Origin: Candidatus Falkowiibacteriota bacterium
GTDB lineage: Bacteria; Patescibacteriota; Patescibacteriia; Patescibacteriales; UBA12465
DNA: 34,158 bases
Assembly: GCA_903847415.1 (NCBI GenBank)
Contig: CAINDR010000040.1
Span: 1 to 34,158 of the forward strand
Reading direction: 5' to 3'
In this document: positions 10,129 through 25,706 of the stretch, one piece after another
Layout of the letters: every line of letters begins with the position of its first letter
How positions within the stretch are numbered: position 1 is the stretch's first letter
The notes under the pieces: model-generated
What the model was told of the DNA's origin: nothing
Seen by the model: only the letters and a program-made list of their open reading frames with translations
The model's database searches: none
Made by a program: the position numbers and the translations under genes

Positions 10129-10176
10129 TCAATAAAAATCAGATTTGTTTAAATAATAAAGATTCAAATATAATTT

Positions 10177-19349: not shown

Positions 19350-19877
19350 ATGGAAGCAATCAATGAGCAAAAAATCGCTAAAATCGCTGAAATCGAAGCG
19401 AGCACCTTAGAAATTAAATTTTTATATGGCTCACCATCCATCTCTTTTAGCCCTCAAATATTTTCTGGTTACATTGACCCCGATGTGCGAAACAATGATT
19501 TAAGTCAAAGTAGTATAATCACTGAAGCCAGTTCTGTTTTTTTTCGGGTTGTCAATCGGGCTCGTTTCTTAGAAGCATTTGCTGAAATTAAAACATCTTG
19601 GGAGGGTAAATGTTTAACAGAGGCGCAAATTGTGGAATTAGCACAAAGTTTACCCAAGGTCATTAAAGACCAAAAGAGCGCTCTTGTTACTTTTCTTTGT
19701 AAAAAAAATATTTTTTTACCAATTGAAGATCAGGCGCCCTGGAAAAATGTTTCAGTGATTGCCATTGATTTTAATTCTCCCGGAAACCCTGTCTATTCTT
19801 GGAGGCTTAATTATCTCGAGCGAATTACTAAATTTATTATAGTATGTCCGACATTTCCGGGCTATTATAACTTTTAA
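19350..19877 (+). CDS. Hypothetical protein
   Basis: ORF with ATG at 19350 (MEAINEQKIAKIAEIEAST...); own promoter and terminator; no recognised motif. Confidence 0.7.
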   Translation: MEAINEQKIAKIAEIEASTLEIKFLYGSPSISFSPQIFSGYIDPDVRNNDLSQSSIITEASSVFFRVVNRARFLEAFAEIKTSWEGKCLTEAQIVELAQSLPKVIKDQKSALVTFLCKKNIFLPIEDQAPWKNVSVIAIDFNSPGNPVYSWRLNYLERITKFIIVCPTFPGYYNF

Positions 19878-19886
19878 TTATCTTCT

Positions 19887-19920
19887 CACCTCAACGTTTC
19901 ATGCGTTGGGGTGTTTTTTA
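19887..19920 (+). terminator. Rho-independent terminator
   Basis: CACCTCAACG-tttcatg-CGTTGGGGTG (10 bp, one wobble) then TTTTTT. Confidence 0.9.
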
Positions 19921-19933
19921 AACAATTTAAGCC

Positions 19934-19962
19934 TTGACTTCTTTTTTCTATTTTGTTAAAGT
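19934..19962 (+). promoter_or_regulatory. Candidate promoter of the str operon
   Basis: TTGACT, 17-nt spacer, TAAAGT. Confidence 0.65.
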
Positions 19963-20075
19963 AACAACAAAGAATAAAAAATATCCTTGAAATCAGGGGA
20001 TTATTTTAAGATTAAATTATGAAAACGAATTTTTTTGAAAGTTCGTAATTTGTAGTTTGCTATCGTAATTTATTT

Positions 20076-20522
20076 ATGCCAACAATCAATCAGCTGGTCA
20101 GAAAAGGCCGCACTCCGAAAACTGGGCGAAAAAAATCACTGGCACTTCATGTCAGCCTTGATTCTTTGCATCGCAAGAAAAAAGACGTGGCCAAAGGAGC
20201 TCCTTTTAAACAGGGGGTTTGCCTAAAGGTAACAACTACTACTCCAAAAAAACCAAACTCCGCTCTTCGAAAGATTGCTAGGGTTCGTTTGTCTAATGGA
20301 ATGGAAGTTACTGCTTATATCCCAGGAATGGGCCACAACTTGCAGGAACACTCAATCGTTTTAATCAAGGGTGGAAAAACCAAGGATCTTCCAGGTGTTC
20401 GCTACAAGATTGTTCGTGGTGTTTTTGATGCTTCCGGTGTTGAAGCTCGTCGCCAAGGACGAAGTTGCTATGGTGCAAAACGTCCAAAAGCAGGCGCCGC
20501 TGTTGCTGCTAAGAAAAAATAA
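20076..20522 (+). CDS. rpsL: 30S ribosomal protein S12
   Basis: [12 protein letters not shown]...[46 protein letters not shown]. Confidence 0.97.
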
Positions 20523-20596
20523 AATTTAGTTTAATTTAGAATTTCTATAATTTAGCCGTGGATTATGAAATAGCTGATAATCTATAGCACACATTT

Positions 20597-21064
20597 ATGA
20601 GAGGTAAACAAGCTCCAAAAAGAGATATCGAAGGTGACGCAAAATACAACGACAAAACAATTGCCAAGTTTATTAACTATGTTATGGAACGTGGCAAAAA
20701 AAGTGTTGCTGAAGCAATCGTTTATGATGCTTTTGAAATCATCAAACAAAAAACCAAACAGGATCCTCGCCATATTTTTAATAAGGCAGTGAAAAAAGTA
20801 TCCCCCTTGGTTGAAGTGCGTGGCAAACGTGTTGGTGGTGCAAACTATCAAGTTCCATTTCAAGTTCGTGGCGAACGTCGTTATTTTTTGGGTTGCAATT
20901 GGGTAATTAATGCTGCTTTGTCTCGCAAAGGCGCTGCAATGGCTGAAAAATTAGCTACCGAAATTCTTGATGCTAGCAATGGCGAAGGGGCAGCAGTTAG
21001 AAAACGTGAAGCAGTGCACAAGATGGCTGAGTCCAACAAAGCTTTTGCTCATTTTTCTAGATAA
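20597..21064 (+). CDS. rpsG: 30S ribosomal protein S7
   Basis: MRGKQAPKRDIEGDAKYNDKTIAKFINYVMERGKK...VRGKRVGGANYQVPFQV...KREAVHKMAESNKAFAHFSR. Confidence 0.97.
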   Translation: MRGKQAPKRDIEGDAKYNDKTIAKFINYVMERGKKSVAEAIVYDAFEIIKQKTKQDPRHIFNKAVKKVSPLVEVRGKRVGGANYQVPFQVRGERRYFLGCNWVINAALSRKGAAMAEKLATEILDASNGEGAAVRKREAVHKMAESNKAFAHFSR

Positions 21065-21180
21065 ACTTCTATTTTTGGCGAACTTCGTCGTCGAAATTTG
21101 TTCATGATCGCTCACCGTACGCTTAGTACGGCTCGCTCCGCTCACAATTTCTTCCTAGAATTTCCTCCAAAAATATAAGT
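21065..21180. repeat. 116-nt imperfect palindrome (possible MITE/REP-like element) in rpsG-fusA spacer
   Basis: Ends ACTTCTATTTTTGG / CCAAAAATATAAGT (13/14 complementary), inner complementary GAAATTTG/CAATTTC, centre CCGTAC-GCTTA-GTACGG (21115-21131). Confidence 0.6.
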
Positions 21181-21189
21181 TTTCATCTT

Positions 21190-21285
21190 TGGTCGAAGAT
21201 TTTATTCTTCATCCAAAAATGCAACCCTTATTTATCAGGACGGTTACATTTTCACCTCAACATAAAACCCTAATTTTTAGGTTCT
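21190..21285 (+). promoter_or_regulatory. Hairpin-rich fusA leader
   Basis: TTGG..GAAG-attttatt-CTTC..CCAA (about 21190-21217); ATGCAACC..GGTTACAT; AACCCTAA-ttt-TTAGGTT; successive dyads before fusA. Confidence 0.35.
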
Positions 21286-21322
21286 CATTTTTCTCAATAA
21301 TTTATTTTATTAATATATATTT

Positions 21323-23404
21323 ATGCCTCGAGATTATTCTTTAGACAAGATCAGAAATATCGGTATCATGGCTCACATTGATGCTGGAAAAACTACTTTC
21401 ACTGAACGTGTTTTATTTTACACTGGTAAAAAACACAAAATTGGTGAAGTTCATGAAGGCGCTGCTGAAATGGACTGGATGGAACAAGAAAAAGAGCGTG
21501 GCATCACAATTACCTCTGCCGCGACTACTTGTTTCTGGAAAGGAAATAAAATTAATATTATTGATACCCCTGGACACGTGGACTTTACTGTTGAAGTAGA
21601 GCGTTCTTTGCGTGTTTTGGATGGTGCTGTGGCTGTTTTTGATGGCCAAGCTGGTGTTGAACCACAATCAGAAACTGTTTGGCGCCAAGCAGACAAATAT
21701 CACGTTCCACGTCTTTGTTTCGTGAACAAAATGGATAAAATGGGTGCCGATTTCTACATGAGTTTAGCATCTATTCGTGATCGTTTGAGCCCAAAAGCAG
21801 TAGCTGCTCAATTGCCAATTGGCGCTGAGGATCGTCTTTTGGGTGTTGTAGATTTATTAGATCAAAAGGCTTACGAGTTTAAAGGGCAAAATGGTGAGAA
21901 TATTATTGAAATTCCAATCCCTGAAGATTTAAAAGCTAATGTTGAAAAATATCGCGCTGAATTGGTGGAAAAGGCAGTAGAATGCGACGAGGAGTTAATG
22001 GAAAAATATTTAAACGGTGAAGAAATTAGTGTTGTAGAATTAAAAAAAGCAATGCACAAGGGAGTAATTGGTAATCATATTTATCCAGTTTTCTGTGGGA
22101 CTGCTTTGCAAAATATTGGTGTTCAGTTGATGCTTGATGCGGTTAATGATTATTTGCCATCACCACTTGAAACTCCAGAAATTGAAGGTATTGACGTTGA
22201 TGATCCAGAAAAAACCTATAAAGTTTTAGCAGACGATAGTCAACCTTTTGCCGGACTTGCTTTCAAAATTGCTACTGATCCTTTTGTTGGAAAACTTTGT
22301 TTCGTTCGGGTCTATAGTGGAGTATTAGCCGCTGGCTCTTATATTGTGAATTCCAAGACTGGAAATAAAGAGCGAGTTGGCCGCTTGGTTCGCATGCATG
22401 CTAATCATCGCGAAGAAGTTAAAGAAGTTTATGCTGGTGATATTGCCGCCGTTATTGGTTTGAAAAACACAACCACTGGTAACACTTTGTGTGATGAATC
22501 TCGCCAAATGTTTTTAGAAAATATTATTTTCCCAGAACCTGTAATCAAGATTGCTGTTGAACCAAAGACTAAAGTTGATCAAGAAAAAATGGGAGTTGCT
22601 CTTCAACGTTTAGCTGAAGAAGATCCAACCTTCCGAGTTGAAACTGATGAGGAAACCAATCAAGTTTTAATTTCTGGAATGGGTGAACTTCACCTTGATA
22701 TTATCGTTGATCGTATGAAGCGTGAATTTGGTGTTGAAGCTAACGTCGGTAATCCTCAGGTTTCTTATCGTGAAACAATCACTAAAATTGCTGAAGCTGA
22801 ACATAAATATATTAAACAATCTGGTGGAAAAGGTCAGTATGGTCATTGTTCGTTGAGAGTTGAGCCACAGGAGACTGGCAAGGGATATGAATTTGTTGAC
22901 GAGGTAAAAGGTGGGGTTATTCCAAAAGAATATATTCCAGCGATTGAAAAGGGTGTTCGTGAGGCTCTTCAGAGTGGTGTTGTTGCCGGTTATCCAATTG
23001 TTGACGTGAAGGTTGCTGTTTATTACGGTTCTTATCATGAAGTTGATTCTTCCGAACTCGCTTTTAAAATGGCCGGAATCTTTGCTTTCAAAGATGCTTG
23101 TCAAAAGGCAGGGGCAGTTTTACTAGAACCAATGATGAAAGTTGAAGTGTCCACTCCGGAAGATTATATGGGAAATATTATTGGTGATCTAAACTCCAAG
23201 AGAGGTCAGATTGAAGAAATGAATGATCGTCCAAATAAGATTAAGTTGATTCACGCCAAAGTTCCGTTAGCAGAAATGTTTGGTTATGCAACCTCATTAC
23301 GATCGATGTCTCAGGGACGAGCTAACTATTCGATGGAATTTTCTCATTATAGCGAAGTGCCAAGAAATATTTTGGAAACTATCAAAACTAAGAGTTCAAG
23401 ATAA
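21323..23404 (+). CDS. fusA: Elongation factor G
   Basis: [58 protein letters not shown]; 693 aa. Confidence 0.98.
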
Positions 23405-23406
23405 TT

Positions 23407-24039
23407 ATGCATAATTTTGAACAGCTAAGTGGTTTAGATAAAAAGACAGAAGATTTTTTTGGTTTAGCTGGAGAGAGAATTTTGAGTGAAGAACAGAAGA
23501 AAAAATTGCCAGCCCTTTTGGAGTTTGCAGAAGAATTTGGCAATAAAATTAAAATTGAAAAACCAGGAATTCAGTTAAAAGATTTTCAATCAGAAACAGA
23601 GGCAGAGGAGTTGTTGCAAGAGTTTATTGGAAATCCGATGTTGAGTGATTCTTTTGATCAAGATAATTCTAGTCGACGCGAATGGGAAAAAGAATGTCTT
23701 TTTCTTCAAGATCAATCATTAATTGATATTTATCAAAAAAATAAATTAGCCAAATCTCGTAGTCAGAATATTGTTGCCAACTTTTTATTACTGTATGAAG
23801 GTGAAAAAGACGTTTCCGAAGATTTATCTGAAAGCATTAGTGCTATTATTGATAATCTTGAAGACTATAAAAATTCAGAGGAGTATTCAAATGCGAGTTT
23901 TGAAGAGAAATGGAAAACGATTGATCCATATGATCAATTGACAACAGGGGGAAAGATGGAATTTATGGAAAGATACGAACAAGCAGCCTTAAAAATCCTA
24001 TCCCTCATTAAGCAAGAGCGTTTTCAGTCCAAGGAGTAA
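23407..24039 (+). CDS. Hypothetical protein between fusA and tuf
   Basis: 210 aa soluble acidic helical protein starting 2 nt after the fusA stop; no recognised motif. Confidence 0.78.
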   Translation: MHNFEQLSGLDKKTEDFFGLAGERILSEEQKKKLPALLEFAEEFGNKIKIEKPGIQLKDFQSETEAEELLQEFIGNPMLSDSFDQDNSSRREWEKECLFLQDQSLIDIYQKNKLAKSRSQNIVANFLLLYEGEKDVSEDLSESISAIIDNLEDYKNSEEYSNASFEEKWKTIDPYDQLTTGGKMEFMERYEQAALKILSLIKQERFQSKE

Positions 24040-24051
24040 GTAAATAAATAT

Positions 24052-24426
24052 ATGGACGAGAATTTTCAGCGGATTATCCGCTTAATCAAAAAAACTGGCG
24101 ATAAAATGATTTTTTTTGACAGCCAGCAACCAGAAAATTCTTTTGTGATGTTTCCGCTAGAAGTTTACGAAAGGGAAGTGGATGCCGATAGTCAGATTAA
24201 CAAAGTTCCAGCCCTACCACTAGATTTGACAGAAGGAGGTTTAGCTGATAAAATAAACTCTGATTTAGTTGCTTGGAAAAATGAGATAAATCCAGAATTT
24301 TTAGCCGAAGAAGTTCAAATTGGTGGCCAGTACTTTGTTCAGGGGCCTCAAAAAACAACGGAAAAGATTAAAAATTGGCAGATTCCAGAACCAATCAAGC
24401 ACGCAGCAGAGGAAGTTGTTGAATAA
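24052..24426 (+). CDS. Small hypothetical protein between fusA and tuf
   Basis: 124 aa; MDENFQRIIRLIKKTGDKMIFFDSQQPENSFVMFPLEVYE; ATG 12 nt after previous stop. Confidence 0.78.
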   Translation: MDENFQRIIRLIKKTGDKMIFFDSQQPENSFVMFPLEVYEREVDADSQINKVPALPLDLTEGGLADKINSDLVAWKNEINPEFLAEEVQIGGQYFVQGPQKTTEKIKNWQIPEPIKHAAEEVVE

Positions 24427-24457
24427 AAGTTTGAAAAATTTATAAATAATTAATAAC

Positions 24458-24507
24458 TACGACTGGTTTCCCAAGTGGAAAGAAACCTCATTAAATTGAG
24501 GGTCGTA
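24458..24507 (+). ncRNA. Candidate three-way-junction RNA in tuf 5' leader
   Basis: Outer stem TACGAC (24458-24463)/GTCGTA (24502-24507); inner GGTTTC (24465)/GAAACC (24487) or TTTCC/GGAAA; inner CCTCA-ttaaat-TGAGG (24486-24501). Confidence 0.5.
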
Positions 24508-24518
24508 AAAATAAACAA

Positions 24519-25706
24519 ATGGCAGAAAAATTTGACCGTTCGAAACCTCACGTTAACATTGGTACTATTGGCCACGTTGACCACGGGAAAACAACCTTGA
24601 CCGCCGCTATGTTGGCAGTTTTTGGTGCTAATGGAATGAGCGCTTCGAAAAAAGGCGTTAACGAAATTGACTCCGCTCCAGAAGAAAAAGCTCGTGGTAT
24701 TACCATTGCTACTGCTCACGTTGAGTATGAATCAGCAACTCGCCACTATGCTCACGTTGATTGTCCAGGACACGCTGACTATGTTAAAAACATGATCACC
24801 GGTGCTGCTCAAATGGATGGTGCTATTTTGGTAGTTTCCGCAACTGACGGCCCTATGCCTCAGACTCGCGAACACATCTTACTTGCTAAACAAGTTGGTG
24901 TTCCTTATATCGTTGTTTTCTTAAACAAATGCGATATGGTTGAGGATGTTGAGTTGATCGACCTTGTTGAAGAAGAAGTTCGTGATCTTTTAAAGAAATG
25001 GGATTTCCCAGGTGATACAACTCCAATTATTCGTGGTAGCGCTTTGAAGGCTTTGGAAAATCCAACTGGCCCAGACGCTGAACCAGTGATGAAGTTGATG
25101 GAAGCTATTGATTCCTATATCCCAACTCCAGCTCGTGATGTTGATCATCCTTTCTTGATGCCAGTTGAAGATATCTTCTCAATTGAAGGTCGTGGAACAG
25201 TAGTTACTGGTAGAATTGAACGCGGTATCATTAAAGTTGGTGAAGAAGTTGAAATCGTTGGTTTGATGGATACTAAAAAGACCACAGTTACTGGTGTTGA
25301 AATGTTTAACAAGCAGTTAGATCAAGGTCAAGCTGGTGATAACGCTGGTTTACTTCTTCGCGGTACTAAGAAAAATGAAATTGAACGCGGACAAGTTCTT
25401 TGTAAACCAGGTTCAATCACTCCTCATTCTGAGTTTGAAGCTGAAGTTTACATTTTGGGTAAAGATGAAGGTGGTCGTCACAAACCTTTCTTTAAGGGTT
25501 ATAAACCACAATTCTATATCCGTACTACCGATGTTACTGGTGAAATCGAATTGCCAGCAGGTGTCGAAATGGTAATGCCAGGAGATACTGCTAATTTGAA
25601 GATCAAATTGATCTCCCCAGTTGCTCTAGAAGAGAAACAGAGATTTGCTATTCGTGAAGGTGGTCGCACTGTCGGCGCCGGCGTGGTAACAAAAATTCAA
25701 AAATAA
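24519..25706 (+). CDS. tuf: Elongation factor Tu
   Basis: [65 protein letters not shown]; 395 aa. Confidence 0.99.

Follow-up and report, generated by a model that had tools for sequence, protein, structure and literature searches.

A palindrome between rpsG and fusA is probably an old copy of a MITE-like mobile hairpin family found across Patescibacteria

The pneumococcal repeats RUP and BOX are short, non-coding, palindromic, multicopy and non-autonomous. RUP is 107 bp long and is tied to IS630-Spn1 and to TA targets (PMC2229807, PMC3049150), 36 annotated genes take their stop codon from a BOX repeat (PMC3049150), and BOX, RUP and SPRITE are all enriched between convergent genes (PMC3049150). 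The Rickettsia palindromic elements (RPE), of 105–146 bp, form long stem-loops and have terminal inverted repeats (PMC2229807). ERIC affects mRNA stability in one orientation only (PMC2229807), and NEMIS RNA has been proposed to be an RNase III substrate (PMC2229807, PMC3049150).

By description, the hairpin family that we report here shares the general properties of RUP and BOX, and it has in common with RPE its length, its stem-loop, its terminal inverted repeats and its occurrence in small genomes of host-dependent bacteria. It differs from RUP, with its TA target, in that the members we call type C have a 5-bp duplication, and from BOX, RUP and SPRITE at convergent gene ends in that its copies lie mostly between co-directional genes, in sense. 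Correia/NEMIS and ERIC are likewise MITE-like hairpins co-transcribed with operon genes, although they have other ends and other hosts. As precedents, BOX shows that a repeat can supply stop codons, and ERIC that effects on operon messages can depend on orientation. RPEs are known for inserting inside reading frames, whereas the copies described here are found at gene ends or between genes. Enterobacterial REPs are about 20–40 nt long, are linked to RAYT transposases and make no target duplication; REP/BIME resemble the present family as palindromes behind genes in tandem or mosaic copies, but our elements are about 120 nt long and their young copies carry duplications. Integron attC sites are imperfect palindromes past a stop codon, in fixed orientation, with a structure that is kept better than the sequence. 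The present family is similar in all of these respects, but in the loci read it is flanked by ordinary operon genes (rpsG-fusA, rpsM-rpsK, rpsC-rplP, nrdR and similar), with no cassette array, and target-site duplications are present.

The locus lies in a window of 34,158 nucleotides, by which we mean the whole stretch of DNA that was analysed, from a draft genome assembled into 64 contigs totalling 928 kb. The nearest named relative of its S7 protein is that of a Candidatus Falkowbacteria MAG (Patescibacteria), at 97%, and Pfam matches confirm the identities of S12, S7 and EF-G. The features between and around rpsG and fusA are as follows.

20597–21064, + strand: rpsG (ribosomal protein S7), upstream neighbour; Pfam PF00177
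21063–21182, + strand: hairpin element, type A copy; inverted repeat, fold and covariance model match
21063–21078, + strand: 5′ outer arm AAACTTCTATTTTTGG, which opens with the final two bases of the rpsG stop codon
21086–21093, + strand: conserved internal loop, 5′ side, CGTCGTCG; family consensus YTTYGTYR, with G-T-C invariant in alignment A1
21115–21131, + strand: apical stem-loop CCGTAC-GCTTA-GTACGG; stem nearly invariant across the family
21152–21158, + strand: conserved internal loop, 3′ side, TTCCTAG; family consensus TTCCTYG, with T-C-C invariant in alignment A1
21167–21182, + strand: 3′ outer arm CCAAAAATATAAGTTT; inverted repeat
21187–21218, + strand: small hairpin directly 3′ of the element, with the TTTGG-CGAAG/CTTC-CCAAA layout found in the element; fold
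21323–23404, + strand: fusA (elongation factor G), downstream neighbour; Pfam PF00009, PF03764 and others

The palindrome described in a sequence-only reading of this window is borne out in its details: arms ACTTCTATTTTTGG and CCAAAAATATAAGT are complementary at 13 of 14 positions, the centre is the apical stem-loop listed above, and CGCTCAC occurs at 21109 and again at 21139. A repeat tool lengthens the arms to 16 nt (21063–21078 against 21167–21182, 94% complementary, with 88 nt between them). The element does adjoin the end of rpsG, but does not start right after the stop codon as had been claimed, since the 5′ arm overlaps the TAA at 21062–21064. It lies in sense with both rpsG and fusA. 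Folded as RNA, positions 21055–21195 give −31.2 kcal/mol (z = −3.7), with none of 200 shuffles as good, and folding 21063–21182 with DNA parameters gives z = −3.9. The hairpin is broken by internal loops, and the same loops are conserved in relatives.

A large, stable hairpin directly past a stop codon might act as a large intrinsic terminator for rpsG, and termination was among the functions first suggested for it. We consider this extremely improbable, given that no T-run follows the 3′ arm, as it would in a classical terminator, that a scan of 19800–24600 gives just a short internal match at 21073–21096, and that most stop-adjacent copies are found between co-directional genes, so that termination would shut off fusA, rpsK or others. 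As a secondary effect, processing or termination at the hairpin is conceivable.

The small hairpin at 21187–21218 occupies the place at which another genome of the family, G009, has a tandem full copy at its own rpsG-fusA site (L056 1632–1746). Together these suggest a local duplication followed by loss of the core, such that the small hairpin would possibly be a homologous, core-deleted second copy. The remaining spacer, 21183–21322, likewise has a fold stronger than chance (z = −3.1) and contains three consecutive small hairpins. Further away, upstream of rpsL, a strong intrinsic-terminator-like hairpin with a T-run lies at 19887–19913 of the window. The rpsG-fusA spacer of G016 (L031) carries another repeat-rich sequence, CAAAGATCTTAT...CAAAGATCTTATC, and from this difference the spacer seems prone to insertion.

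BLASTN of the 116 nt, the check that had been proposed for copy number, finds a single copy in the window's own genome, as well as a 71% copy elsewhere in a same-genus genome, between rpsM and rpsK. Across 31 genomes of the taxonomic family, the rpsG-fusA spacer holds a hairpin of equal length and layout in 9 and none in the other 22, most of which have a plain spacer of about 50–120 nt. Covariance models were used as well; all genomes compared are drafts. Model R1, built from ten sequences aligned by sequence alone and with a 35-pair structure, scores the window copy at 115 bits (106 bits with the refined model R2), and detects a second copy in the same genome at C17:8504–8625, located 3 nt past a stop codon and 16 nt ahead of a gene with a TP_methylase domain that reads as rsmI. 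It also finds three copies in the same-genus genome G002 and five in G009, the latter being a tenth genome with a filled rpsG-fusA site. Plain BLASTN is thus misleading here, because copies diverge to about 65–75% identity and only a structure-aware model connects them. A single copy conserved in all relatives was the pattern that would have spoken for a cis-regulatory hairpin instead, and it is contradicted twice, by the second copy and by the 22 of 31 genomes that lack the hairpin.

With R2, copies are found in at least 79 of 381 genomes of the class, and in at least 37 of 380 genomes of a phylum-wide sample, both counts being lower bounds given that nine candidates were scored per genome; when 113–150 candidates were scored, single genomes gave up to 29 matches. 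Rfam 15 gives zero matches at the gathering threshold and chance matches only at a permissive one, and we found no report of such repeats in Patescibacteria in the open-licence papers searched. A family of mobile hairpin repeats of about 120 bases across Patescibacteria has apparently not been described so far.

The elements fall into three types by their ends. In type A, comprising the window copy and its family, the ends pair, yet their sequence is variable and not conserved between copies. Terminal inverted repeats are kept between copies in type C (TAGGACTTACGCG) and in type B (GAGATGGTTRCAAAA). Type C has the ends TAGGACTT...AAGTCC and, like type A, a length of about 120 bp, whereas type B, with GAGATGGTTRCAAAA as its outer ends, ranges over 33–198 bp, in sizes of about 33, 49, 147 and 176–198 bp. 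Common to all three is a core made of an asymmetric internal loop (YTTYGTYR versus TTCCTYG) and an apical TC..CGTA...TACG stem, so that the same asymmetric core is found in elements with different ends and different duplications.

Several observations on individual genomes may be added here. Type B in G097 (L075, L077–L081, L196–L206) forms a second, clearly MITE-like family with 3-bp duplications, and there are 43 type B ends in this one 0.9-Mb genome. The type B size series of 33, 49, 147 and 176–198 bp looks like stepwise removal of the common core. At L226, three copies in both orientations lie inside 500 nt (1148–1268 −, 1363–1481 +, 1501–1622 −). Some copies at L244, L245 and L247–L251 (G380) carry an extra G+C-rich palindrome (e.g. 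CCTGCCTGCCGGCAGGCAGG) at the apical loop, and are nested repeats.

Evidence for mobility comes primarily from these relatives. Type C shows a 5-bp target-site duplication that is perfect in 19 of 47 cases (0.6 expected), and type B a 3-bp duplication in 32 of 49 (7.6 expected). G431 carries numerous type C copies, almost identical to one another, at different places, and relatives have further copies at unrelated sites. Copies within a genome can exceed orthologous copies in likeness: the rpsG and rpsM copies of G002 are 83% alike, while its rpsG copy and that of the window are 71% alike, despite 88% identity between the rpsG genes themselves; in G009 the rpsG and nrdR copies are 87% alike. 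Sites also differ in occupancy between close relatives. At rpsC-rplP, G009 has an element where the same-genus G016 has an 11-nt spacer, and the window holds an empty site of its own.

10129–10176, + strand: empty rpsM-rpsK spacer of the window genome; site filled in same-genus G001 and G002

The family is thus short, non-coding, multicopy and dispersed, with terminal inverted repeats and target-site duplication, and it works like a MITE in every feature tested except for a known mobiliser. An autonomous element with type C ends was not found in the draft genome G431, nor one with type B ends in the loci read from draft genomes of the order. One type B copy (L079, G097:C52) has an IS110-like transposase gene at a distance of 204 nt, which is probably coincidence; as this is a single case, we do not take the gene for the type B partner. 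An IS630-type TA duplication was tried for the type C ends and rejected, because an offset test gave no TA excess and a strong excess for the outside 5-mer; without a TA dinucleotide duplication, assignment to the RUP/IS630-type MITEs was set aside as well. An IS200/IS605- or REP-type (HUH) element, expected to leave no duplication, was rejected given the duplications of types B and C.

The window palindrome is probably an old, diverged copy of this family. Our overall reading, which we regard as probable, is that it descends from a non-autonomous, MITE-like mobile hairpin of about 120 bp belonging to a Patescibacteria-wide family, in support of the earlier suggestion of a MITE/REP-like mobile or repeated palindrome in a ribosomal operon. 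For the window copy itself, mobility would follow from that of its relatives. No target-site duplication is clearly recognisable at this copy, which fits an old insertion. The lack of a clear duplication counts against the mobile reading, as do the presence of a sole sister copy in the window's own genome and the failure to find an autonomous element with these ends, and the filled rpsG-fusA sites of many family genomes also fit vertical inheritance with losses.

Members of the family sit directly past stop codons, in gene sense, far more frequently than expected at random. Counting an element as stop-adjacent when it starts −6 to +8 nt from a stop, with one entry per orthologous site and reading frames of at least 80 aa called mechanically, 36 of 89 type A/C sites adjoin the stop of a co-oriented upstream frame and 3 are the mirror image, against a null of 3.8% per side from random noncoding points in the same loci. 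The −6 to +8 range was picked after viewing the loci of these 89 sites, hence a hold-out test on 28 later phylum loci, among which 9 are sense stop-adjacent and 0 mirror (null 2.5%). The models were initially trained on stop-adjacent copies and may slightly favour such copies. Type B, which carries this core too and was detected with the same models, has only 2 sense and 2 mirror stop-adjacent sites among 30, and this control and the hold-out set argue against training bias as the cause of the placement. A second kind of gene edge appears at L238, L241, L248 and L281, where several type C-like copies abut an apparent tRNA 5′ end on the other strand, with a D-arm-like GAGCTAC... in the flanking sequence.

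Most stop-adjacent copies are placed between genes of the same direction, and for some the next start is only 9–20 nt away. Within co-directional gene pairs, sense outnumbers antisense by 39 to 3 beside stops and by 28 to 16 elsewhere. The 5-bp target contains a stop triplet in 19 of 26 sense and 12 of 26 antisense cases, so landing in a stop codon can recreate the stop; the target being nearly symmetric, its choice alone fails to account for the orientation. The orientation bias is likely to be caused by selection for insertions that are tolerated or useful, and, with the sense orientation otherwise unexplained, there may be a functional reason beyond harmless insertion.

This placement, directly past stops, in sense and mostly within co-directional gene pairs, is also what one would expect of a cis-acting structured RNA, selected as RNA for intercistronic processing, stability or translation coupling and occasionally duplicated elsewhere. 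Such an RNA would account, too, for the conserved unpaired bases of the core and for the strong covariation. Both-side changes are seen in 26 of the 35 pairs among the ten aligned sequences, and 94.6% of paired cells are complementary, compared with 74.3% when shuffled and under 50% with partners slid by one column. Pairing kept at the RNA level should, however, give G-U clearly in excess of A-C, and at paired positions the counts are 86 and 95 (p = 0.55; 86 non-redundant, mostly type A/C elements). Several of the G-U and A-C cases fall at a small number of positions that appear constitutively unpaired, and the alignment behind the count was fitted to the model, an effect that, if any, should favour G-U. 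In the absence of an excess, pairing is probably at the DNA level, most of it probably kept by transposition needs or by replication correction between the arms rather than by a folded message; the short core may still have a role as RNA. Given also that most relatives have no element at the rpsG-fusA site, that target-site duplications and near-identical multicopy relatives exist, and that type B has the same core yet no stop-codon bias, we think a purely RNA-selected origin unlikely.

A fixed orientation would likewise follow if the hairpin were a strand-specific, single-stranded DNA substrate of a recombinase or HUH-type transposase, attC-like or REP-like. The asymmetric conserved loops within an otherwise near-perfect DNA palindrome, the orientation bias and the stable fold under DNA parameters are all in keeping with this. 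The 3-bp and 5-bp duplications of young copies are what is expected of DDE-type transposition, unlike HUH or site-specific recombination, and ordinary operon genes, rather than cassettes, flank the elements in the loci read, which makes us strongly sceptical of this explanation.

Returning to the MITE-like mobile hairpin, the following course of events may be proposed. A putative transposase acting in trans would recognise the paired ends of the element, and insertion would duplicate an A+T-rich 5-bp target, as it has in young type C relatives. At the very end of a gene, insertion would recreate the stop, since the target often holds a stop triplet, and would do little harm. Sense insertions directly past the stop codon would then be preferentially kept, and the element would become a co-transcribed hairpin between two operon genes, with a putative effect on the rpsG-fusA mRNA. 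During the long residence of the window copy, its ends and duplication would have decayed while the pairing survived. A bolder reading, which we think rather unlikely, is that the asymmetric core makes the hairpin useful or harmless in sense just past a stop, and that a mobile repeat has turned into a widespread intercistronic module; if true, this module would influence how translation terminates, how ribosomes are handed over or how mRNA is processed in operons, core ribosomal ones included.

Although the genomes of Patescibacteria are very small, this hairpin family is phylum-wide and found within core ribosomal operons. It is placed tightly past stop codons in a specific orientation, unlike the pneumococcal repeats considered above with their preference for convergent gene ends, and the covariance model makes the family annotatable. 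The finding raises the question of whether a hairpin beginning within the footprint of the terminating ribosome alters termination, coupling or mRNA decay, or whether the stop codon is simply the sole harmless place to land.
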